Positions 16,222 through 32,474 of a DNA stretch of 35,849 bases are shown here, piece after piece. How positions within the stretch are numbered: position 1 is the stretch's first letter; each line of letters starts with the position of its first letter. This DNA is from Candidatus Tepidiaquacellales bacterium OLB5 (lineage in GTDB: Bacteria; Bacteroidota; Ignavibacteria; Tepidaquicellales; OLB5): NCBI GenBank assembly GCA_001567545.1, contig LLZO01000203.1:1-35849 (forward strand), written 5' to 3'. Under the pieces are notes generated by a model. It did not search any database, was not told the DNA's origin, and saw nothing but the letters and a program-made list of their open reading frames with translations. The position numbers and the translations under genes were made by a program.

Positions 16222-16614
16222 TTACTTTAGCCGCACCAGCTTTCCCTTTCGTTTAACAATATTTTTATAATCCCACTGAATATCCCGCGCTTTCTTAAGC
16301 CAGCGTTTAAGTTCTGTTTTCTTTATTTGTTTAACATCTGTGTAACGTTTTTCAGCAGCTTTAAATGAGCCTTCGCTTTGCAAACCGGGTTCACTAAACG
16401 ATTGTCCGCTCCAGAACAGAAGCCTTACTGAATCCTTAAGCTTGCTGTAACCTGCAACCGGATTACCTTCTATGAACCAAACAGGGTGAGCATGCCATAC
16501 TTTATTTTCTGAGCCTTTGAGGTATTTATCAATTTCTTCAGCAAGTGTATTACAAATCTTTTTATCTGCTGCAGATTGTTTATTATTATAAGCTTTAATT
16601 TCTTTATCTAACAT
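16222..16614 (-). CDS. DUF1801 domain protein
   Basis: A 130-residue soluble protein. The DUF1801 pattern is recognised in KKICNTLAEEIDKYLKG, NKVWHAHPVWFIEGNPVAGYS, DSVRLLFWSGQSFSEPGL and the C-terminal KKTELKRWLKKARDIQWDYKNIV. This is the YdhG-like form with the HAHPVWF signature, distinct from the three other DUF1801 genes here. The function is unknown. It has no close neighbour on its strand. Confidence 0.8.
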   Translation of the reverse strand: MLDKEIKAYNNKQSAADKKICNTLAEEIDKYLKGSENKVWHAHPVWFIEGNPVAGYSKLKDSVRLLFWSGQSFSEPGLQSEGSFKAAEKRYTDVKQIKKTELKRWLKKARDIQWDYKNIVKRKGKLVRLK

Positions 16615-16856
16615 AACTTTTAATTTTAGAAAAACTTTAAATAAACGAACTAAATTCTATTAATTTATAAAAAAGTATTAATAAAAAATAGTAACTTAGG
16701 AATTTTTTCTATAAAATTAATTGCAATTAACTTGCGATTTATTCATAATATTTTATTTTGTAAATAATTATAAGTAAACACTATCTGTTTTTTAACAGTA
16801 TTCCTTAAGATCATTAAAAATCTCTCGTTACAATAATCTCAGAAATAAAATAAATA

Positions 16857-16863
16857 CAGGAGG
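16857..16863 (+). promoter_or_regulatory. Strong Shine-Dalgarno site
   Basis: CAGGAGG lies 8 bases before ATG 16872. Most genes here have weak or no such site, so this one marks the operon head for strong translation and fixes the start codon. Confidence 0.7.
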
Positions 16864-16871
16864 TTATTTCT

Positions 16872-17987
16872 ATGGAACAATTAAGCAGTAAAGAAAAACC
16901 AAAATTCGCAGTTTTAGGGGCAGGTCATGGAGGCCTGGCAATGGCAGGTCATTTGGCTTTAATGGGCTTTAAAGTAAATCTTTATAACAGAAGTGAAGAA
17001 AGATTATGGGGAATAAAAGCAACAGGAGTAATTAAACTTGACGGTGAAATTGAAGGTGACGGTATTATTAAAACCGCAACAACAGATATCGAACAGGCTT
17101 TAAATGGTGTTGATATAATTATGGTTGTTGTTCCTGCCAATGCGCACAGGTTTATGGCAGAAAAATGCGCTCCGTATTTACGTGACGGGCAGATTGTAAT
17201 ACTTCATCCCGGCAGAACATTTGGAGCGCTTGAGTTTAAACAGATTTTAAACAAAAAAAAAGTTAAGGCTAATGTGATTGTAGCTGAAGCGCAGACATTT
17301 ATTTATGCTTCAAGGGTTGTTGGACCGGGGCATGTGCATATATTCCGTGTTAAGAACTCAATCCCGATTGCATCGGTGAGAGCGCATAAAATTCCTATTG
17401 TAATAGAAAAGCTTAAACCGGCGTATAATGAATTTGTACCGGGAGATAATATTTTTAAGACAAGCTTTGATAACATAGGAGCAGTATTTCATCCTGCAAT
17501 AAGTATTTTAAATGCAGGCTGGATAGAGGATATAAACGAGTTCCAGTTTTACGTTGAGGGAATAACCCGTTCTGTTGCAAGAGTGCTTGAAGAAGTTGAT
17601 AAAGAGCGTGTGGCTGTTGCTGCAGCGCTTGGAATACGCGCTATGACCGCAAGGGAATGGCTTTACCTTGCTTACGGTGCTGCAGGCAAAGATCTCTACG
17701 AAGCTGTACATTCTAACCCGGGGTACAGGGGAATAATGGCGCCGCCAACTCTTGATATGCGGTATTTGAATGAGGATGTTCCAGAAAGTTTAGTACCGAT
17801 TTCTTCGCTGGGTAAAAAATTTAATATAGAAACACCTGCAATAAATTCACTGATCTACCTGGCTTCATCACTTAACGGGATAAACTACTTTGAAACAGGC
17901 AGAACAGTTGAAAAGCTGGGGATTGCAGATATGAGCCTCAAAGAACTGAGGCTGCTATCAATTGGGCAGGCAGATATTAAGAATTAA
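16872..17987 (+). CDS. NAD/NADP octopine/nopaline dehydrogenase family protein
   Basis: The 371-residue enzyme has an N-terminal Rossmann domain with VLGAGHGGLAMAGHLALMG (GxGxxG at about residues 16-21) and a C-terminal helical domain of the opine dehydrogenase family, with the His of AVFHPAISILNAG as the likely catalytic residue. Family members reductively join an amino acid to a 2-oxo acid, or run the reverse reaction, with NAD(P)H. The substrate here is unknown. It is the first gene of an operon with the B12-domain protein (17 bases downstream), the asparagine-synthase-like protein and a membrane protein, which suggests its amino-acid substrate is made or altered by those enzymes. It is not accompanied by a nicotianamine-synthase-like gene, so a staphylopine-type metallophore pathway is not indicated. 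Confidence 0.88.
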   Translation: MEQLSSKEKPKFAVLGAGHGGLAMAGHLALMGFKVNLYNRSEERLWGIKATGVIKLDGEIEGDGIIKTATTDIEQALNGVDIIMVVVPANAHRFMAEKCAPYLRDGQIVILHPGRTFGALEFKQILNKKKVKANVIVAEAQTFIYASRVVGPGHVHIFRVKNSIPIASVRAHKIPIVIEKLKPAYNEFVPGDNIFKTSFDNIGAVFHPAISILNAGWIEDINEFQFYVEGITRSVARVLEEVDKERVAVAAALGIRAMTAREWLYLAYGAAGKDLYEAVHSNPGYRGIMAPPTLDMRYLNEDVPESLVPISSLGKKFNIETPAINSLIYLASSLNGINYFETGRTVEKLGIADMSLKELRLLSIGQADIKN

Positions 17988-18004
17988 ATCAGGATACTAG
18001 AAAG

Positions 18005-19654
18005 ATGAAAGAAAAATTAATACTTGGCGCTGCATTAGGCAGCTGTGTACATATCGGCGGATTACATCACTTTCTTAAATTGGCGGAATCCGAAGGCTTT
18101 AAGACAATATCATTAGGTCCCGCAGTACCTGTAATCAGGTTTATAGAAGAGATAATTAAACATAAACCATTAGTAGCAGCAGTAAGCTACAGGCTTACAC
18201 CGGAAGTTGCTGCGCTTCTTTTTGAAGAACTGAAAAAAAAGGTTAAGGTAAATAACTTAACAGGAATAAAATTTATTTTCGGAGGTACCCCGCCTGCAGC
18301 TGAAGCTGCTAAAAGGTCAGGATTGTTTGAAAAGGTATTTTCAGGTACAGAATCAATTAAAGAAATTAAAGCATACCTTAGAGGAAGTGATAACAAAGAA
18401 GAAGATAATGCACAGGAAAATACACTTATTGGCAGGATAAATAAAAAATATCCTTATCCGCTGCTTAGGCATCACTTTGGCAGACCAAATGTAGAAGAAA
18501 CAATACAGGGAGCAAAGGAAATTGCTGATGCAGAAGTACTTGATGTACTTTCCCTTGGAACAGACCAGAATGCCCAGGAATTTTTCTTTAACCAGGCTGA
18601 AATGAATCCCGCAATGGATGGAGCCGGAGGCGTGCCGGTCAGAAAACCGGAACACCTGAAGGCAATATATGATGCTTCAAGGTGCGGCAACTTTCCGCTT
18701 ATGAGGTGTTACAGCGGCACAAATAATCTGCTGCAATGGGCAGAAATGAGCGTTGAAACTATCAATAATGCATGGGCTGCTATACCGCTTTGCTGGTACA
18801 GTGTTATTGACGGAAGATCTGAACGCAGCTTATACGATGCAATAACAGAAAATAAAAATGTTATGAAGTGGTATGCAGATAAAAACATACCGGTTGAGGT
18901 GAACGAGTCACACCAGTGGAGCTTAAGAGATGCACATGATTCACTGGCAGTAGTTATGAGTTATCTTGCAGCATATAATGCTAAAAAGATGGGTGTAAAG
19001 AATTATGTATCACAGTTTATGTTTAATACTCCGCCGGGCACTTACCCGGCAATGGATATTGCCAAAATGACAGCAAAGAGAATAATGCTTGAGTCTCTTG
19101 AAGATGAGAATTTTAAGGTATACCGGGAAGTTAGAGCCGGGATTGCGCATTTTTTTCCCGTGCCTGCAATCGCTAAAGGGCAGCTTGCCGCTTCAATTGC
19201 TGTGAGCCTTGCATTGCAGCCGCATATTCTTCATGTTGTTGGATTCAGTGAAGGAGATCATGCAACTTATCCGGGCGAGCTTATTGAAAGCTGCAATATT
19301 GCGCATGGCGTTCTGCATAACTGCCTGGAAGGACTTCCTGATATGAAAAATGATGCAATGGTTAAAAACCGGCGCGAAGAGCTGCTTGAAGAAGCTGCAG
19401 TTTTGCTTGAAGCATTAAATACATTCGGGATAAATGTTTCTGAAGACCCGCACGGAGATGCCAACGTTATTGCAAAGGCAATAAAATACGGATTACTTGA
19501 TGCACCTCATTTCAGGGGAAATGTGCACCTATGCGGCGAAATAACTACGAGCTTAATAGAAGGCGCCTGGTATGCTGTAGAAGAAAATTCAGGGAGAATT
19601 ATAAAAGAAAAAGAAAGAACTGATAAAATTTTAAAAGATAAAGGAAAATTATAA
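18005..19654 (+). CDS. B12-binding-domain protein with mutase-like barrel
   Basis: The 549-residue protein appears to join two domains. Residues 1-125 resemble a cobalamin-binding Rossmann domain: ALGSCVHIGGL, the AESEGFKTISLG strand, AVSYRLTPEV and FIFGGTPPA match the successive motifs. The usual DxHxxG cobalamin signature is altered to C14-V-H16-I-G-G19, so Asp is replaced by Cys while His and Gly are kept. Residues about 140-549 look like a TIM-barrel of the glutamate-mutase epsilon type (LDVLSLGTDQNAQEF, IPVEVNESHQWSL, GVKNYVSQFMFNTP, HGDANVIAKAIKYG). A carbon-skeleton rearrangement of an amino acid is therefore the best guess. The assignment of the barrel rests on pattern resemblance only. 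The gene is 17 bases after the opine-dehydrogenase-like gene. Confidence 0.65.
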   Translation: MKEKLILGAALGSCVHIGGLHHFLKLAESEGFKTISLGPAVPVIRFIEEIIKHKPLVAAVSYRLTPEVAALLFEELKKKVKVNNLTGIKFIFGGTPPAAEAAKRSGLFEKVFSGTESIKEIKAYLRGSDNKEEDNAQENTLIGRINKKYPYPLLRHHFGRPNVEETIQGAKEIADAEVLDVLSLGTDQNAQEFFFNQAEMNPAMDGAGGVPVRKPEHLKAIYDASRCGNFPLMRCYSGTNNLLQWAEMSVETINNAWAAIPLCWYSVIDGRSERSLYDAITENKNVMKWYADKNIPVEVNESHQWSLRDAHDSLAVVMSYLAAYNAKKMGVKNYVSQFMFNTPPGTYPAMDIAKMTAKRIMLESLEDENFKVYREVRAGIAHFFPVPAIAKGQLAASIAVSLALQPHILHVVGFSEGDHATYPGELIESCNIAHGVLHNCLEGLPDMKNDAMVKNRREELLEEAAVLLEALNTFGINVSEDPHGDANVIAKAIKYGLLDAPHFRGNVHLCGEITTSLIEGAWYAVEENSGRIIKEKERTDKILKDKGKL

Positions 19655-19686
19655 ATTTACTTTAAAAACAGAAAGGAACAGATAAC

Positions 19687-21168
19687 ATGTGCGGAATAAC
19701 TGCTTTATTCGGAACAAATGATCCCGTTGATATTTACAGTATGAGCGAAAAATTAAAACACAGGGGTCCTGATGATTTTGGTTACCATGCCGGCAGCGGA
19801 ATAATACTTGGTCACACCAGGCTTTCTATAATTGATCTTAAGGGAGGGAAGCAGCCAATTTATAATGAAACAGGTGATAAATGTATTATTTGCAATGGTG
19901 AGATATATAATTACAGGGAGCTTAAAAGAGAATATCTCCGGAATCACAGATTCTCAACTGATTCTGACAGCGAAGTTCTGCTTCATTTATTCGAAGAATT
20001 TGGATTTGACTGTTTGAAACTTCTCAATGGAATGTTCGCTTTTATAATAAATGATAATGGTAACATTTTTGCAGCAAGAGACAGGATAGGTATTAAACCT
20101 CTTTATTTTGGAAACAAGAACGGTGTTATGGCTTTTGCTTCTGAAATTAAATCACTGGAAGGCTATGAAGATATCAGTGAATTTCCGCCGGGATATTATT
20201 ATTCAAATATTACCGGTTTTCATCAGTATTATTCAATTGACTGTTTTGAAAATCCTTATCTTAACAATGAAGACGAAATATGCTCGCTTATAAGGGAAAA
20301 ATTGTTTATTTCTGTTAAACGAAGGCTGGTTTCCGATGTGCCGGTCGGGATTTTTTTAAGCGGGGGACTTGACAGCAGCATAATTGCAGCATTAATGAAC
20401 CCGTACGTTGACAGACTTCATACTTTTGCTGTAGGAACTGAAGGTTCTGAAGACCTGGCGGCTGCAAGAAAAGTAGCGGGATTCCTGAATTCAAAACATT
20501 ATGAATATATTTATTCAGAAAAAGAGATGAAGAAATATATTAATGATGTAATTTATTACCTGGAATCATTTGATGCGCCTCTTGTAAGAAGCGCACTGCC
20601 GAATTATTTTGTAGCCAGGGCGGCAAAAGGCAAAATTAAAGTAGTGCTTACCGGTGAAGGAGCTGATGAACTTTTCAGCGGTTATCACTATCTTAAGAAC
20701 CTTAATTGCTCAGGAGCTTTGAATGATGAGCTGTTAAGGCTTACGCGTTCTCTTCATAATGTTAATCTTCAGAGAACAGACAGGATGACTATGGCTCATT
20801 CTATAGAAGCCCGTGTTCCGTTTTTAGATCATGAATTTGTTGAATTTGCACACAGTATACCGTTAAAATTCAGGTGTGCAGGTGATAACAAGATCGAAAA
20901 ATATCTTCTGCGCAAAGCATTTAAAAACTATCTGCCGGATGAAATATTATGGAGAGATAAATTAAAATTCTCTGAAGGCTCTGGCGCGGAAGATTTATTT
21001 AACAAGATTGCTGAAACCGGCATAAGTGACAGTGAGTTTTTAAATGAAAGCTCAAAAGCTCCTCACAATATCAGGGGAAAAGATGAACTTTATTTTTACA
21101 GGATTTATAAAGAACATTTTTCGTTTTGTGAAAACAAACAGATAGCCGGTGTAACTGAAGATTTTTAG
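19687..21168 (+). CDS. Glutamine-hydrolysing asparagine-synthase-like protein
   Basis: The 493-residue enzyme has an N-terminal glutaminase domain with the catalytic Cys2 (MCGITALFG), RGPDDFG, Arg45 in HTRLSIID and the CNGEIYN loop. The C-terminal synthetase domain has the PP-loop SGGLDSS (225-231), GEGADELFSGY and RMTMAHSIEARVPFLDHEF. It uses ammonia from glutamine and ATP to amidate an acid. It is shorter than standard AsnB (about 550-620), like many pathway-specific relatives. Its position in an operon with a mutase-like and an opine-dehydrogenase-like gene suggests an unusual acid is the substrate, but plain Asn synthesis is not excluded. All catalytic motifs are intact. Confidence 0.92.
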   Translation: MCGITALFGTNDPVDIYSMSEKLKHRGPDDFGYHAGSGIILGHTRLSIIDLKGGKQPIYNETGDKCIICNGEIYNYRELKREYLRNHRFSTDSDSEVLLHLFEEFGFDCLKLLNGMFAFIINDNGNIFAARDRIGIKPLYFGNKNGVMAFASEIKSLEGYEDISEFPPGYYYSNITGFHQYYSIDCFENPYLNNEDEICSLIREKLFISVKRRLVSDVPVGIFLSGGLDSSIIAALMNPYVDRLHTFAVGTEGSEDLAAARKVAGFLNSKHYEYIYSEKEMKKYINDVIYYLESFDAPLVRSALPNYFVARAAKGKIKVVLTGEGADELFSGYHYLKNLNCSGALNDELLRLTRSLHNVNLQRTDRMTMAHSIEARVPFLDHEFVEFAHSIPLKFRCAGDNKIEKYLLRKAFKNYLPDEILWRDKLKFSEGSGAEDLFNKIAETGISDSEFLNESSKAPHNIRGKDELYFYRIYKEHFSFCENKQIAGVTEDF

Positions 21169-21180
21169 AAAGGCATAAAA

Positions 21181-21702
21181 GTGAACATATTAAGTATTGC
21201 CGCTGGTATGTTCTTTATTATGTGCGCAAGGATTGTTGATGTATCTCTTGGTACATTAAGAATGCTGAATGTTGTTAAAGGACATAAATACAGGGCAGCT
21301 GTTTATGGATTTATCGAAGTATTGATATGGATAATTGCAATGAGATTTATTATGCAAAATCTGGATAATATGTGGAATATTCTTGGATATTCAGCTGGAT
21401 TTGCTATTGGTACTGTAGCAGGCGTTTCTATTGAAAATAAATTCGGAACTGGTTACCTGCAGATTTACGTGATATCGAAATATCATACTGATAAAATTGC
21501 TGATAAATTAAGATCTCTTAAAATTGGTGTAACAATTATGCCCGGCGAAGGTGCCAGAAGCGGAGTAGCTGTAATTGTTTTAATAGCTATGGCAAAAAGA
21601 AGATCTGAAATAATCCGGACAATTGAATCTATCGATCCTAAAGCATTTATTACTGTTCAATCCGCGATTCCTTACAGAGGATTTATTCATTCACGTAAAT
21701 AA
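21181..21702 (+). CDS. UPF0316/DUF2179-type membrane protein
   Basis: The 173-residue protein has three predicted N-terminal membrane helices (residues about 4-22, 38-58 and 65-87) followed by a small cytoplasmic domain with LRSLKIGVTIMPGEGARSG and KRRSEIIRTIESIDPKAFITVQ, the DUF2179 pattern. The start is GTG at 21181, with AGAAAGG about seven bases upstream; the preceding gene ends 12 bases earlier, so it is the last gene of the operon. DUF2179 domains may bind a small ligand; function is unknown. It could export or sense the product of the pathway, a guess from position alone. Confidence 0.82.
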   Translation: MNILSIAAGMFFIMCARIVDVSLGTLRMLNVVKGHKYRAAVYGFIEVLIWIIAMRFIMQNLDNMWNILGYSAGFAIGTVAGVSIENKFGTGYLQIYVISKYHTDKIADKLRSLKIGVTIMPGEGARSGVAVIVLIAMAKRRSEIIRTIESIDPKAFITVQSAIPYRGFIHSRK

Positions 21703-21761
21703 ATAATTATTAGTTATAAATTATTAATAATTATTAAAATACTTTTTTTCTCCTGAATATA

Positions 21762-21776
21762 TTCCATAATATGGAA
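21762..21776. promoter_or_regulatory. Palindrome upstream of yceI (possible operator)
   Basis: TTCCATAATATGGAA is a perfect palindrome about a central A. It lies 67 bases before the start of the YceI gene, a normal place for a repressor or activator site. No cognate regulator is adjacent. Confidence 0.45.
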
Positions 21777-21790
21777 CTTTTTTCGAATAA

Positions 21791-21808
21791 TATGTGTTGC
21801 AACACATA
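21791..21808. promoter_or_regulatory. 18-bp palindrome upstream of yceI (possible operator)
   Basis: TATGTGTTGCAACACATA is a perfect 18-bp palindrome 35 bases before the YceI start. Its core GTTGC/GCAAC half-site letters recall the MarR-type operator found at 25590 and 33033, but the spacing differs (no 5-bp gap), so a different protein is likely. Confidence 0.5.
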
Positions 21809-21842
21809 AGGTAAACAATTCAATAAAAATTCTGGAGGAAAA

Positions 21843-22424
21843 ATGAAACGACTAACATTATCAGTTTTTGCGCTGCTTTTTTTAATAACAGTGAATTTAG
21901 CTTCGCAGACGGTCTGGAAACATGACCCGAACCACTCAAAGCTTGGATTTACTGTTACCCATTTAACAATTGCAGATGTAACAGGATACTTCACAAAATT
22001 TGATGTATCGGTTACATCAAGCCAGGCTGATTTCAGCGATGCAGTAATTGAAATGACAGCTGATATAAATTCCATTAATACGGGAATTGAAGCTCGCGAT
22101 AACCATTTAAAAACCGCAGATTTTTTTGATGCAGCAAATCACCCGACAATGACTTTTAAGAGCACATCAATTGAAAAAGCAGGTGACAGGCATTATAAGC
22201 TGAAAGGGAATCTGACTATGCATGGCGTTACAAAAGAAATTACAGTTGACCTGTATCACAGGGGAACTATACAGAATCCAATGGCTAACAATGCAGATGT
22301 TGCCGGATTGCAGATTACCGGTACTTTAAAAAGATCGGATTTTAATATCGGCTCAACATTTCCTGATTTTGCAATAAGTGATGAAGTCAGAATTAAAGCA
22401 GACGGCGAGTTTTCTAAAAAATAG
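21843..22424 (+). CDS. YceI-family periplasmic protein
   Basis: The 193-residue protein has a signal peptide (MKRLTLSVFALLFLITVNLASQ) and one YceI domain of about 170 residues. Family signs are DPNHSKLGFTVTHLTIADVTGYF (the first 20 residues of this run are diagnostic; residues 27 onward), SINTGIEARDNHLKTADFFDAANHPTMTF and GNLTMHGVTKEITVDL. YceI proteins form a lipocalin-like barrel that binds long-chain isoprenoid molecules such as polyprenyl quinones. Here the site is periplasmic. GGAGG (21834-21838) supports the start. Two palindromes upstream suggest that it is tightly regulated. It is a single-gene unit ended by the hairpin at 22448. Confidence 0.93.
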   Translation: MKRLTLSVFALLFLITVNLASQTVWKHDPNHSKLGFTVTHLTIADVTGYFTKFDVSVTSSQADFSDAVIEMTADINSINTGIEARDNHLKTADFFDAANHPTMTFKSTSIEKAGDRHYKLKGNLTMHGVTKEITVDLYHRGTIQNPMANNADVAGLQITGTLKRSDFNIGSTFPDFAISDEVRIKADGEFSKK

Positions 22425-27346: not shown

Positions 27347-28789
27347 ATGAAAAAGATAATTTTTAAAACTAAGCACTATTTGTTAATATATTTTGGATTA
27401 GCATTGATTACGGTATTTGCTGCAAGCTCTTGCAATAAAGATACGCGCTCTGACAGCAATACTGTGCCAAAACCGGTAAATCCGCTTGAAGGAAAAGTGC
27501 TTCCGCACCTTGATCACAGTGCTTATTTTAAAGATACCATTTTAACACCTCAGGAAGTAACGCGCAGATGTCTGGAATGTCATCCCAACAGCGCTATGGA
27601 AGTAATGAAAACCCCGCACTGGACATGGATAAGCGGTGATGTTGAAAGGAACGGGAAAAATATCCCAATAGGTAAAAGGAACCAGATAAATAACTTCTGT
27701 ATCAGCATTGTTGGAAACTGGAATTCCTGCACTTCATGTCATGCAGGCTACGGGTGGGAAGATATGAGCTACGACTTTTCAAAAGAAGAAAATGTTGATT
27801 GCCTGGTATGCCATGACGGTTCAGGTACTTATTCAAAAACCAAACTTGGTATGCCTGATAAAAATGTTGACCTGCGTTTGGTTGCAGGAAGCGTACACCG
27901 CCCCGCACGTGAGAATTGCGGTATTTGCCATTTCAGCGGCGGCGGCGGTATGGGTGTAAAGCACGGTGACCTGGATGAATCGCTTATCAATGCAAACAAG
28001 GAGCTGGATTTCCACATGGGTAAGCTGAATTTCCAGTGTGTTGACTGCCATACTACAAAAAATCATAAGATTGCAGGTAAAGTAAATACTACATATACTG
28101 AAAAAACAAATGCAGTAAGATTTAATTGTGAAAAATGTCATACGGATCAGCCGCATAAAGAGCCCAGGCTGAATAAACATACATCAAGGATAGCATGTCA
28201 GACATGTCATATACCTGAGTTCGCAAAAAAACTCCCGACAAAAATGATTTGGGACTGGTCAAAAGCAGGTGATTCAACAAGGATAGACAGCCCGCATGAA
28301 TACCTTAAGATAAAAGGTGAATTCCAATATGAAGAAGGAGTTATACCAACATATGCCTGGTTTAACGGAAAAATGGATAGATATATCAAGGGGGATAAAC
28401 TTGATGACGAACCTGAACACTTTATGAACAGACCATTAGGCTCACGTGATGATAAGAATGCAAAAATCTGGCCATTTAAAGTACATCATACTGTTCAGCC
28501 TTATGATGAAGTAAACAATATTCTTATTCCACCCATAACCAGCGGTGAGGGAGGGTTCTGGACGAAATTTGACTGGGCATATGCGCTTGAAACAGGCGCA
28601 AAGCTGAACAATCTGCCTTACAGCGGAAAGTACGGTTTCACAAAAACCAAAATGTACTGGCCTATAACTCACATGGTTACAACAGGCAAAAATGCTCTTG
28701 CCTGTGTTGACTGCCACTCCAAAGGTGGAAGGCTGAACTGGGCAGAACTGGGCTATAAACACGACCCGTTACAGGGACCGGGAAAATAA
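27347..28789 (+). CDS. Octaheme c-type cytochrome, tetrathionate reductase family
   Basis: The 480-residue periplasmic lipoprotein (lipobox AASSC, Cys29) has exactly eight CxxCH haem sites: CLECH (75), CTSCH (127), CLVCH (151), CGICH (190), CVDCH (230), CEKCH (260), CQTCH (283) and CVDCH near the C-terminus. The count, the length, and the large gap between haem seven and haem eight match octaheme tetrathionate reductase (OTR), whose known member reduces tetrathionate and also nitrite and hydroxylamine in vitro. The physiological substrate in this group is unsettled. It is 55 bases after the FadL gene and is followed by two sulfur transporters and a membrane cytochrome that could feed it quinol electrons. 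Confidence 0.9.
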   Translation: MKKIIFKTKHYLLIYFGLALITVFAASSCNKDTRSDSNTVPKPVNPLEGKVLPHLDHSAYFKDTILTPQEVTRRCLECHPNSAMEVMKTPHWTWISGDVERNGKNIPIGKRNQINNFCISIVGNWNSCTSCHAGYGWEDMSYDFSKEENVDCLVCHDGSGTYSKTKLGMPDKNVDLRLVAGSVHRPARENCGICHFSGGGGMGVKHGDLDESLINANKELDFHMGKLNFQCVDCHTTKNHKIAGKVNTTYTEKTNAVRFNCEKCHTDQPHKEPRLNKHTSRIACQTCHIPEFAKKLPTKMIWDWSKAGDSTRIDSPHEYLKIKGEFQYEEGVIPTYAWFNGKMDRYIKGDKLDDEPEHFMNRPLGSRDDKNAKIWPFKVHHTVQPYDEVNNILIPPITSGEGGFWTKFDWAYALETGAKLNNLPYSGKYGFTKTKMYWPITHMVTTGKNALACVDCHSKGGRLNWAELGYKHDPLQGPGK

Positions 28790-28810
28790 ATTATTTAATA
28801 TATAAGTAAC

Positions 28811-29344
28811 ATGAAAATCAAACCAAAACCATATAAGAATCCATACTTTGCAGGAGCATTACTGGGTGTAGTATTATTCAGCGCTTATGCACTGACTCAC
28901 AGCGGCCTGGGAGCTTCTGGCGCTATCAGCCGCATACATGTTGCCATTACAAAATTATTCTGGCAGCAGCATGTTGATATGGTGAGCACATTTGCTTTAA
29001 TGGGAGCAGGGGATACCAATGCCCTGGATCATGCCAGTGTATTTCTGTTAATTGGCACTTTTGCAGGCGGAATGATCTCTGCACTTATCAACGGAAGACT
29101 GAAGCTTGAAATTTTTAAAGGTCCGCAGATTTCAAATGTTCAGCGGCTTATTTTTGCGCTGATAGGCGGCTTGATAATGGGTTATGGCGCAAGGTTTGCA
29201 CGCGGCTGCACATCAGGGCAGGCACTTTCAGGCGGCGCTGTACTTTCACTTGGAAGCTGGGCTTTTATGTTCAGTGTGTTTATCGGCGGCTATGCTGTTG
29301 CTTACTTTGTACGCCGCCTGTGGGCTGAACCAAATTTAAAATAA
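28811..29344 (+). CDS. YeeE/YedE-family sulfur transporter, first protein
   Basis: The 177-residue inner-membrane protein has about four helices. The family signature is seen in GGLIMGYGARFARGCTSGQAL, where Cys133 lies in the RGCTSG turn (the last residues of a longer conserved run, starting near residue 119). YeeE/YedE (DUF395) proteins move thiosulfate or related reduced-sulfur species through a relay of conserved cysteines. In many genomes the transporter is split in two short proteins; here this protein and the next, which starts 13 bases downstream, form such a pair. An N-terminal helix precedes a periplasmic loop of about 35 residues. Direction of transport cannot be read. Confidence 0.9.
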   Translation: MKIKPKPYKNPYFAGALLGVVLFSAYALTHSGLGASGAISRIHVAITKLFWQQHVDMVSTFALMGAGDTNALDHASVFLLIGTFAGGMISALINGRLKLEIFKGPQISNVQRLIFALIGGLIMGYGARFARGCTSGQALSGGAVLSLGSWAFMFSVFIGGYAVAYFVRRLWAEPNLK

Positions 29345-29357
29345 GAAAAAATTTAAT

Positions 29358-30554
29358 ATGTTACCTATAGATGTAATTGCAGTTCTCGGAAAATTCGGCG
29401 GGTATGCCGTATTTGTTGCTATTGGCATGGGATTTGGCGCTGCTTTGGAAATTGCCGGTTTCGGTGACTCACGCCGGCTTGCTGCACAGTTCTATTTAAA
29501 AGATATGACAGTTTTGAAAACTATGTTTACAGGAATTGTGGTTGCAGCGGTTTTAATATTTCTGTCATCAGCTCTGGGTTTTCTGGATTTTTCACAAATA
29601 TCGGTTACCCAAACTTTTTTATGGCCGGGAATTATTGGCGGCCTGATAATGGGTGTTGGATTTATAGTAGGCGGTTACTGCCCCGGAACTTCAGTTGTTT
29701 CAGCAGCAAGCCTTAAGATAGACGGACTTTTCTTTCTGGCCGGCACTATTCTTGGAGCCGGAATTTTCGGTGAATCACTTCCTGCTTTCACTGATTTCTG
29801 GAATTCATCATTTACTGAACGGTATCTGCTTTCAGACTGGCTTGGATGGTCAATAGGCGCAACATTATTTGCAGTTGTGCTTATGGCAATAATGATGTTT
29901 TACGGAGCCGAAAAAACCGAGGAGTTCTTCAGGATTAAAAAAACCGGCGGTAAATGGTCTTGGAAAATATCAAAACGCTCATACCTTGCGGGTGCTGCTG
30001 TTTTGGTTGTTACAGCAGCTTTAGTCTGGACTATCGGCCAGCCTGACCCGGTTCGTAAATGGAGCCTGATGGAAGGCAAATACGGCGGGCAGCTTGCTGC
30101 ACGGGATGTTTTCATTCACCCTCTTGAATATGTTAAAACATTCAATGAAGCATCAATAAAGCTTGTTACTCTTGATCTGCGTGCTGAGGAAGAATTCAGA
30201 AAATTCCATATAACAGGCTCTGAAAATGTTAAGCCTGAAGATGTGCTGAATCCTGAATTTATTTCGCCGCTGACGCAGCTTCCGGCACAGGGAGTAGTAA
30301 TCCTGATTGCAGATAATGAAGCAGTATCTGTGCAGGCATGGAAATACCTGAAAGTACAGGGCGTGAACAATGTTTATATTCTTGATAATGGACTGCATGA
30401 CTGGAATAAGCTTTTTGAAGGCAAAACCATTTCCGGAAAATCCATAAATATATCATCTCCGCCTTCTGAGGTATTGAAGTTATTTCCAAAGGATGCATAT
30501 GCACCCAAGATAAAAATAAGTACTAAAAAGCGTTCGGGCGGACTTTGCAGTTAA
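29358..30554 (+). CDS. YeeE/YedE-family sulfur transporter fused to a degenerate rhodanese domain
   Basis: The 398-residue protein has an N-terminal YeeE/YedE membrane part (residues 1-185) with GGYCPGTSVVSAASLKIDG, giving Cys108 as the conserved relay cysteine. After one more membrane helix (208-226) it carries a rhodanese-like domain (about 245-353): VTLDLRAEEEFRKFHITGSEN is recognisable. The catalytic loop that should hold Cys reads IADNEAVS, so the domain cannot form the usual persulfide. The extreme C-terminus, KKRSGGLCS, has a lone Cys397 that might act as a movable thiol. It pairs with the preceding transporter half and precedes the cytochrome. A role in passing or sensing sulfur is inferred. 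Confidence 0.88.
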   Translation: MLPIDVIAVLGKFGGYAVFVAIGMGFGAALEIAGFGDSRRLAAQFYLKDMTVLKTMFTGIVVAAVLIFLSSALGFLDFSQISVTQTFLWPGIIGGLIMGVGFIVGGYCPGTSVVSAASLKIDGLFFLAGTILGAGIFGESLPAFTDFWNSSFTERYLLSDWLGWSIGATLFAVVLMAIMMFYGAEKTEEFFRIKKTGGKWSWKISKRSYLAGAAVLVVTAALVWTIGQPDPVRKWSLMEGKYGGQLAARDVFIHPLEYVKTFNEASIKLVTLDLRAEEEFRKFHITGSENVKPEDVLNPEFISPLTQLPAQGVVILIADNEAVSVQAWKYLKVQGVNNVYILDNGLHDWNKLFEGKTISGKSINISSPPSEVLKLFPKDAYAPKIKISTKKRSGGLCS

Positions 30555-30574
30555 AACACAAAATATTTGATCGT

Positions 30575-32474
30575 ATGAAATTATTATCTGCAGTTTTTAA
30601 ATTAACGGCTATTATAATTATATTTGGTTCAGCTGCAAACACAGCAACGGCACAGATACTTAAAGGAAACACTTTTAACAATACAGAGTGCATGCAGTGC
30701 CATGAAAAACATGTACCTTCTGACATGTATAATAAATCAGTTCACAGCACATTAATGTGCACAGCCTGCCATGAAAAAAGACGATGCAAAACCGGTTGAT
30801 AAGCAGTTTGCCGGAAAGAATAAATGCATAGTATCATTTAAACAAACTAACTGCGCAAGCTGTCACAGCCAGGTTGCCAAAGATCACGAAACAAGCGTAC
30901 ACAACTCTGCCAGGCTGCCTGTTAACTGTTCAAAGTGCCATGCTGATATTCATAAGATCACTTCTATTAAAAATAATAAAACAGCATCGGCAAAGCTTTG
31001 CAGCAGCTGCCATGAAAAAGAAACTGTTTATTTTAAATCGGTTCATTTTAAAGCGCTGGAAAGCGGAAGCAAAGATGCGCCTACCTGTACAGACTGTCAT
31101 AACAAGCATGCGATAGATAAAATAGATAATGTTTCAAACGGAAGGATTTTTCATACACAGGCATGCATGAAATGCCACGCAGATACAGAGATGATGAAAC
31201 GCAACAGCGTTACCACCATTGCTCCAAAATCTTATTTTGAAAGCTACCACGGCAAGAATATCAGGCTTGGATATCCCGAAAAAGTAGCAGGCTGCGCAGA
31301 TTGCCACAGCTCCCACAGCATACTTCCGGAAAAAGACTCAAACTCAACAGTTAACTCTGTAAACCTGATAAATACCTGCAATCAGTGCCATAAAGATGCC
31401 AGTGACGGTTTTGCAAAGTTTATTGCACATGCCGAGCCTAATAACAGGGAAAAATTCCCCGGCCTTTTCTGGATCACCGTATTTATGAATTTATTGCTTG
31501 CAGGAACATTCCTTTTCTTCTGGATGCACTCATTATTGTGGACATTCAGGGGTTTTGCAGAAAAGAAACAAAAAAGGAATGCCGAAGATTTTTCCGGCAA
31601 AGATAAACCTCCTGCTTCAGAGGTGATAATAAAACGTAAAGTATACAGGCGGTTCAAGCCGGTGCATATAACATTGCACCTGTTTGTTGTGACCAGTTTT
31701 CTTGCTCTTGCTTTAACCGGCCTTCCTCTTAAGTTCAATTATACTTCATGGGGAAAAACTCTTATGGATTACCTGGGAGGCATTGGTTCTGCCGGTTTAA
31801 TACACCGCATAGGCGCTGTTATAACATTCGGGTATTTCCTTGTAACACTTGGGATGAGTATCCGTTTCCTGTTCTCCAAAAAACATTCCAAGCAGCCATT
31901 CTTAAAACGGCTGTTTGGTCCTGATTCACTTTTCATCAACAAAAAAGATATTGCTGACATCAAGGCTATGTTCAAATGGTTCTTCTTCCGCGGACCTAAG
32001 CCATCATTTGAAAGGTGGACATACTGGGAAAAGTTTGACTTTCTGGCAGTGTTCTGGGGAGTTGCAATAATTGGCTCAAGCGGACTTGTACTCTGGTTCC
32101 CTGAATTTTTCAGCTATTTCCTGCCTGGTTGGATCTTCAACATGGCTACAATAATCCATTCCGATGAAGCGCTGCTGGCTGTTGGTTTTATTTTTACAGT
32201 TCACTTTTTTAACACGCACCTGCGCGCGGAAAAATTCCCTATGGATTTTGTTATCTTCAACGGGCAGGTTACTGAAAGAGAAATGGTACATGAGAGAGGC
32301 CAGCAGTGGAAACGTTATCAGGAAGAAGGCATCACAGAAAAATTTGAGGTTAAAAAACCTACACCGCTTGGTTGGGATATAACATTACGTTTGTTCGGGT
32401 TACTGGCTGTATTTACAGGTACGGTACTGGCAGTATTGATATTTTACTCTGTAATTACATTAGGGCTGCATTAA
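30575..32474 (+). CDS. Nine-haem cytochrome c fused to membrane cytochrome b, with a frameshift
   Basis: The coding sequence is in two frames. The first (from ATG 30575) has a signal peptide (LTAIIIIFGSAANTATAQ) and two haem sites, CMQCH and CTACH, then goes out of frame. The second (from 30771) has seven more: CASCH, CSKCH, CSSCH, CTDCH, CMKCH, CADCH and CNQCH. It then has about five membrane helices with conserved His residues (HITLHLF, HRIGAVITF, IIHSDEALLAVGF, VHFFNTHLR), a di-haem cytochrome b. The join is at the six-A run 30774-30779; removing one A gives an intact protein of about 632 residues. The second frame alone has no signal peptide, so the haem part could not be secreted. The protein probably oxidises quinol and passes electrons to the octaheme reductase. 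Confidence 0.85.

Follow-up and report, generated by a model that had tools for sequence, protein, structure and literature searches.

What brings an opine-dehydrogenase-like, a B12-mutase-like and an asparagine-synthase-like gene into one operon, and what could their products make together? The question is raised by the window, the whole stretch of 35,849 nucleotides analyzed here from Candidatus Tepidiaquacellales bacterium OLB5, in which these three genes are followed by one for a UPF0316 membrane protein:

16858..16864, + strand: Shine-Dalgarno sequence AGGAGGT of gene 1 (anti-Shine-Dalgarno match scan)
16872..17987, + strand: gene 1, predicted opine dehydrogenase (ODH), 371 aa (PF02317, PDB 1bg6, residue mapping, PMC10787698)
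18005..19654, + strand: gene 2, fused adenosylcobalamin (AdoCbl) mutase-like protein, 549 aa (B12-domain searches, hhalign, residue map)
19687..21168, + strand: gene 3, putative AsnB-type amide synthetase (AsnS), 493 aa (NF006949, PDB 1ct9, residue map)
21181..21702, + strand: gene 4, UPF0316 membrane protein, 173 aa, GTG start (DUF5698+DUF2179, presence/absence)

A mobile four-gene unit

The open reading frame (ORF) coordinates give intergenic distances of 17, 32, and 12 bases. Among the 26 window starts checked, that of gene 1 has the longest anti-Shine-Dalgarno match (AGGAGGT), and most of the others lack one altogether. The operon and its leading ribosome-binding site, both described in a first-pass annotation, are thus borne out, the operon by co-inheritance as well. 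Matches of at least 4 bases precede 7 of the 26 starts, and the cassette genes account for 4 of these 7. A DUF1801-like gene flanks the operon on one side and a YceI gene on the other (window positions 16222 to 22424). Elsewhere in the window (27347 to 32474), a run of ORFs has several Cys-rich, CxxCH-like stretches near the starts and apparently encodes multiheme cytochromes. The window genome carries one cobalamin riboswitch.

Searched with a gene 2 profile, 391 genomes of the class yield 11 strong members, a twelfth match (G538) being a B12 domain alone; a gene 1 profile picks out the identical set of 11 genomes. Gene 1 directly precedes gene 2 in all 11, including G601, whose contig holds only the end of gene 1, and an AsnS-like gene comes third, in the same order, wherever the contig extends past gene 2. 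The genes, which the first-pass annotation had allowed might lie apart in most relatives, are kept together as neighbors. Under independent genome draws, the shared set of 11 would have a chance of ~1e-21, a figure that overstates significance because the genomes are not independent. Even sampling across the phylum (287 genomes) yielded four PF02317 genes, each of them a cassette member. The closest relative is an Ignavibacteria metagenome-assembled genome (L013), whose gene 2 is 91% identical to that of the window; it was the single match when genome contigs were searched with gene 2, and the same search of a plasmid collection gave none.

Within the genus (13 genomes), all four genes occur together in 3 genomes and are missing together in 10, UPF0316 being found in the same 3 that have the operon. 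Two congeneric relatives (G271 and G376; loci L088 and L090) show a clean empty site, where KatG, the DUF1801-like gene, a 186-aa gene, and YceI are present with nothing between, meaning that the operon site is a presence/absence polymorphism. Gene trees join genus g211 of family f4 with genus g162 of family f54 (support of 1.0 for gene 2 and 0.96 for gene 1), in contradiction to taxonomy and indicative of horizontal transfer. Co-occurrence, empty sites, and conflicting gene trees together indicate that the cassette behaves as one block in acquisition, loss, and transfer alike. The four genes are a genuine unit, mobile between bacterial families.

Retained and replaced residues in the dehydrogenase and the mutase-like protein

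Gene 1 matches Octopine_DH (PF02317, E=9.5e-45), together with a Rossmann domain, and its best solved relative is CENDH/ArODH (PDB 1bg6, E=1.2e-71), with which the cassette ODHs share the fold, the catalytic His-Asp dyad, and the active-site Trp. Equivalents of ArODH H202, D297, and W258 are present in 12/12 cassette ODHs (His207, Asp302, and Trp263 in the window). The pair Arg111 and Gly198 in ArODH numbering, Arg115 and Gly203 in the window, is likewise found in all 12, versus 0 of 10 outsiders (octopine-DH-family proteins from plasmids), and every cassette ODH has Arg at ArODH position 35 (Arg40 in the window). According to PMC10787698, a double mutation at positions 111 and 198 switches preference between L-Phe and L-Asp, and Arg35 is an indicator of NADPH use in opine dehydrogenases. 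The hot-spring mODHs described there share Arg111 and Gly198 for acidic amino acids, and most of them share Arg35. Gene 1 is a predicted opine dehydrogenase for acidic amino acids, and Arg35 suggests NADPH as its cofactor. Unlike the ArODH/CENDH type, the cassette ODH is locked in an operon with a B12 mutase-like gene and an amide ligase gene.

Opine dehydrogenases are reversible, so the cassette might instead be catabolic, with the ODH oxidatively splitting a scavenged opine and the mutase and AsnS processing the released acidic amino acid. Glutamate mutase, too, is usually catabolic, and mutE of Escherichia coli adjoins methylaspartate ammonia-lyase genes. However, the flanking genes that were read included none for an ammonia-lyase, an uptake transporter, or a TonB receptor, amide ligation at the expense of ATP is typical of biosynthesis, and Arg35 suggests NADPH, all of which makes a catabolic role quite unlikely.

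Glutamate mutase converts glutamate to 3-methylaspartate. Like this enzyme (MutS/MutE, PF06368), gene 2 has a B12-binding domain (approximately residues 1 to 130) and a full MutE-like TIM barrel (approximately residues 150 to 545); unlike it, gene 2 encodes both parts as a single chain that begins with the B12 domain. The B12-binding match (E=1.4e-6) lies under the Pfam cut-off in the window copy and over it in six relatives. The window barrel has no Pfam match, and in sequence searches of Pfam, NCBIfam, and PDB only one relative reached PF06368, below the cut-off (E=1.6e-4). Profile-profile comparison by hhalign recovered the relationship to MutE over the full-length barrel (94%, E of ~1e-7, 350 columns), with unrelated cassette profiles scoring <1% against MutE; the MutE profile comprised 11 sequences, a single MutE sequence being too weak. 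An AlphaFold model of gene 2, built from the window and L013 copies only, was too poor (pLDDT of 34) and was discarded.

The His and Gly of the B12 motif DxHxxG are present in 13/13 copies, the axial His being His16 in the window; the Asp is Cys in the Ignavibacteria-side copies and is kept in two Bacteroidia copies. An equivalent of MutE Glu330, which we take to be the adenosyl-binding residue, is also found in all 13. The substrate-binding arginine claw of MutE (R66, R100, and R149; PMC10947579), in contrast, is replaced by His, Gln, and Tyr, respectively, each in 13/13 copies, and among other active-site positions E171 is mostly Ala, Y181 is Asp, and K326 is replaced. Replacement this uniform points to a changed substrate rather than decay, and with the claw gone we reject gene 2 as a glutamate mutase. 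Nor was an ammonia-lyase partner, as known for glutamate mutase, seen beside gene 2. The first-pass label "B12-mutase-like" thus fits the B12 domain and the full MutE-like barrel without extending to glutamate mutase itself, and the residue pattern argues for a B12-mutase-like enzyme with an altered substrate pocket. Given the altered claw, the substrate could even be something other than an amino acid. A search for canonical MutE across the phylum gave weak matches only, presumably to other B12 mutases.

A variable ligase and an optional membrane protein

Gene 3 has Asn_synthase and GATase domains, matches PDB 1ct9 (E=9.6e-96), and scores as an ordinary asparagine synthase B (AS-B) at 568 bits against NF006949 (cut-off, 499). 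Like AS-B (1ct9), beta-lactam synthetase, and CarA, the cassette ligases have a PP-loop and an aspartate/AMP site: D351, R387, E348, and K449 (AS-B numbering; residue roles in PMC6748925 and PMC13060819) are present in 10/10 cassette AsnS proteins, the equivalent of E348 sitting in SGEGSDE and being Glu in all copies. The glutaminase residues Cys1, R49, N74, and D98 are kept in the window copy, its genus, and L037, and compared with 1ct9 the window copy is fully AsnB-like. Unlike AS-B, the copies of six relatives have lost Cys1, R49, D98, and part of the glutaminase domain while keeping the aspartate site. Since their glutaminase is lost, these enzymes cannot be glutamine-dependent amidases. 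The amidation that the earlier reading had assigned to AsnS is therefore plausible for the window copy, in which both sites are intact, and does not carry over in that form to most relatives.

Glutaminase-intact and glutaminase-dead AsnS proteins form separate clades in the gene tree. Between the window and the glutaminase-dead cassettes, gene 3 is only 36 to 40% identical versus 62 to 70% for genes 1 and 2, and we read the cassette as a conserved two-enzyme core (genes 1 and 2) with what appears to be a variable ligation step. Could the genes simply travel together without sharing a pathway, with AsnS serving as an extra asparagine synthetase and gene 2 encoding a B12-binding protein that is not an enzyme? 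All AsnB catalytic residues are present in the window AsnS, and most gene 2 copies lack the Asp of DxHxxG, as such an arrangement would allow. However, the window AsnS is far closer to other cassette AsnS proteins (1e-72 to 1e-173) than to in-genome AsnB-like paralogues (1e-39 or weaker), six relatives keep AsnS in place despite glutaminase loss, and in gene 2 the axial His, the adenosyl Glu, and a uniform set of pocket residues are retained. We consider shared travel without a shared pathway improbable.

In place of AsnS, two loci in Bacteroidia have an ATP-grasp protein close to the mutase relative. A Bacteroidia polysaccharide-type cluster (L040:6062-17018) encodes a mutase relative and an ODH-like protein together with a DegT aminotransferase, WbqC, two ATP-grasp proteins, and a 523-aa protein that matches nothing in Pfam.

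Another explanation is that the cassette makes an amino-acid-derived decoration of surface polysaccharide, which the ligase would couple to an amino sugar or a sugar acid. Polysaccharide export clusters of two Bacteroidia genomes indeed contain the mutase relative together with an ODH and an ATP-grasp ligase, among genes for Wzc/Wzz-type proteins, glycosyltransferases, DegT aminotransferase, and Poly_export or WbqC, and a ligase that varies by lineage beside a conserved ODH and mutase would suit such a role. Yet the flanking ORFs read for Ignavibacteria-class cassettes revealed no recognizable cluster of this kind, and the aspartate pocket of AsnS is kept in all cassette copies, leaving a polysaccharide decoration unlikely.

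Gene 4 consists of DUF5698 and DUF2179, that is, UPF0316, and is a cassette member in this genus only. In genome G148, a MarC-family membrane protein is encoded one base after gene 3 (L014:6306-6908), in the place of UPF0316 in the window; in most relatives, no membrane protein was seen beside the cassette. The membrane protein to which the earlier reading had assigned export or sensing is thus not conserved, and its role is not established; any function for UPF0316 is a guess.

A proposed biosynthetic pathway

What, then, might the cassette make? Most likely, judging from residue patterns and gene content, it is a horizontally acquired biosynthetic unit for an N-carboxyalkylated, skeleton-rearranged, and amidated acidic amino acid. 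Sequential use of the enzymes on one molecule is likely because they travel together and because the residues retained in all three indicate acidic amino acids. The general scheme, in which opine formation on an acidic amino acid, B12-dependent rearrangement, and carboxylate amidation belong to one pathway, may be correct with a probability of roughly 0.5. Counting against it are the Cys in place of the DxHxxG Asp on the Ignavibacteria side, the altered claw with its possible non-amino-acid substrate, the lack of an exporter beside the cassette in most lineages, and the ordinary AS-B score of the window AsnS.

Under this scheme, the product of gene 1 would use NADPH to join an acidic, glutamate- or aspartate-like L-amino acid reductively to a small 2-oxo acid, for instance pyruvate, and so form an N-(1-carboxyalkyl) amino acid. 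Gene 2 would then rearrange a carbon skeleton by means of a 5'-deoxyadenosyl radical, as in glutamate mutase, acting on a substrate other than free glutamate and most simply on the N-substituted product of the first step. Gene 3 would adenylate an aspartate-like side-chain carboxylate and convert it to the amide, with glutamine-derived ammonia as the nitrogen source in this genus and another donor where the glutaminase is dead. In genomes that encode it, UPF0316 (in one relative, MarC) might export or sense the product.

The first-pass annotation had placed the joining step last, after rearrangement and amidation. Its linking of the three enzymes agrees with their co-travel and with the residues for acidic amino acids, but that order is not established, and a joining step at the start would be no less compatible with the gene order and with the altered pocket of the mutase. 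The simplest order would be that of the genes, N-carboxyalkylation, radical rearrangement, and amidation; that both this exact order and the product are as proposed is nonetheless rather unlikely. More tentatively than the general scheme, gene 2 may be the first of a family of AdoCbl mutases that rearrange opines to N-carboxyalkyl-3-methylaspartate-type compounds. It is a long shot that the glutaminase-dead ligases form a beta-lactam by ring closure between the secondary amine and the activated side-chain carboxylate, a route unrelated to known ones.

Canonical-type MutE and B12-binding genes adjoin asparagine synthetase A on a Methylobacter plasmid (L110:1895-6254) and a Streptomyces plasmid (L112:468-3152). 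This pairing may yield methylasparagine-like compounds and suggests a precedent for combining a mutase with amidation.

Like the opine metallophore operons of the staphylopine and pseudopaline type, the cassette would use an opine dehydrogenase as the joining enzyme; unlike them, it has a B12 mutase-like gene and AsnS, and no dedicated receptor was seen. In gene content the cassette does not look like a nicotianamine-type metallophore operon, as no nicotianamine-synthase-like gene was seen among the flanking ORFs read, in agreement with the mismatch noted in the first-pass annotation.

No description of the opine/B12-mutase/AsnB combination was found in the open-access literature, subscription literature lying outside the scope of the search. 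The residue patterns make two predictions: gene 1 should act on an acidic amino acid and pyruvate, and gene 2 should use adenosylcobalamin with a substrate other than glutamate. If the proposal is true, opine formation, B12 radical rearrangement, and AsnB-type amidation would be joined in one compact, transferable gene set. The cassette would also place acidic-amino-acid opine dehydrogenases, so far characterized from metagenome sequence, in a possible natural context.
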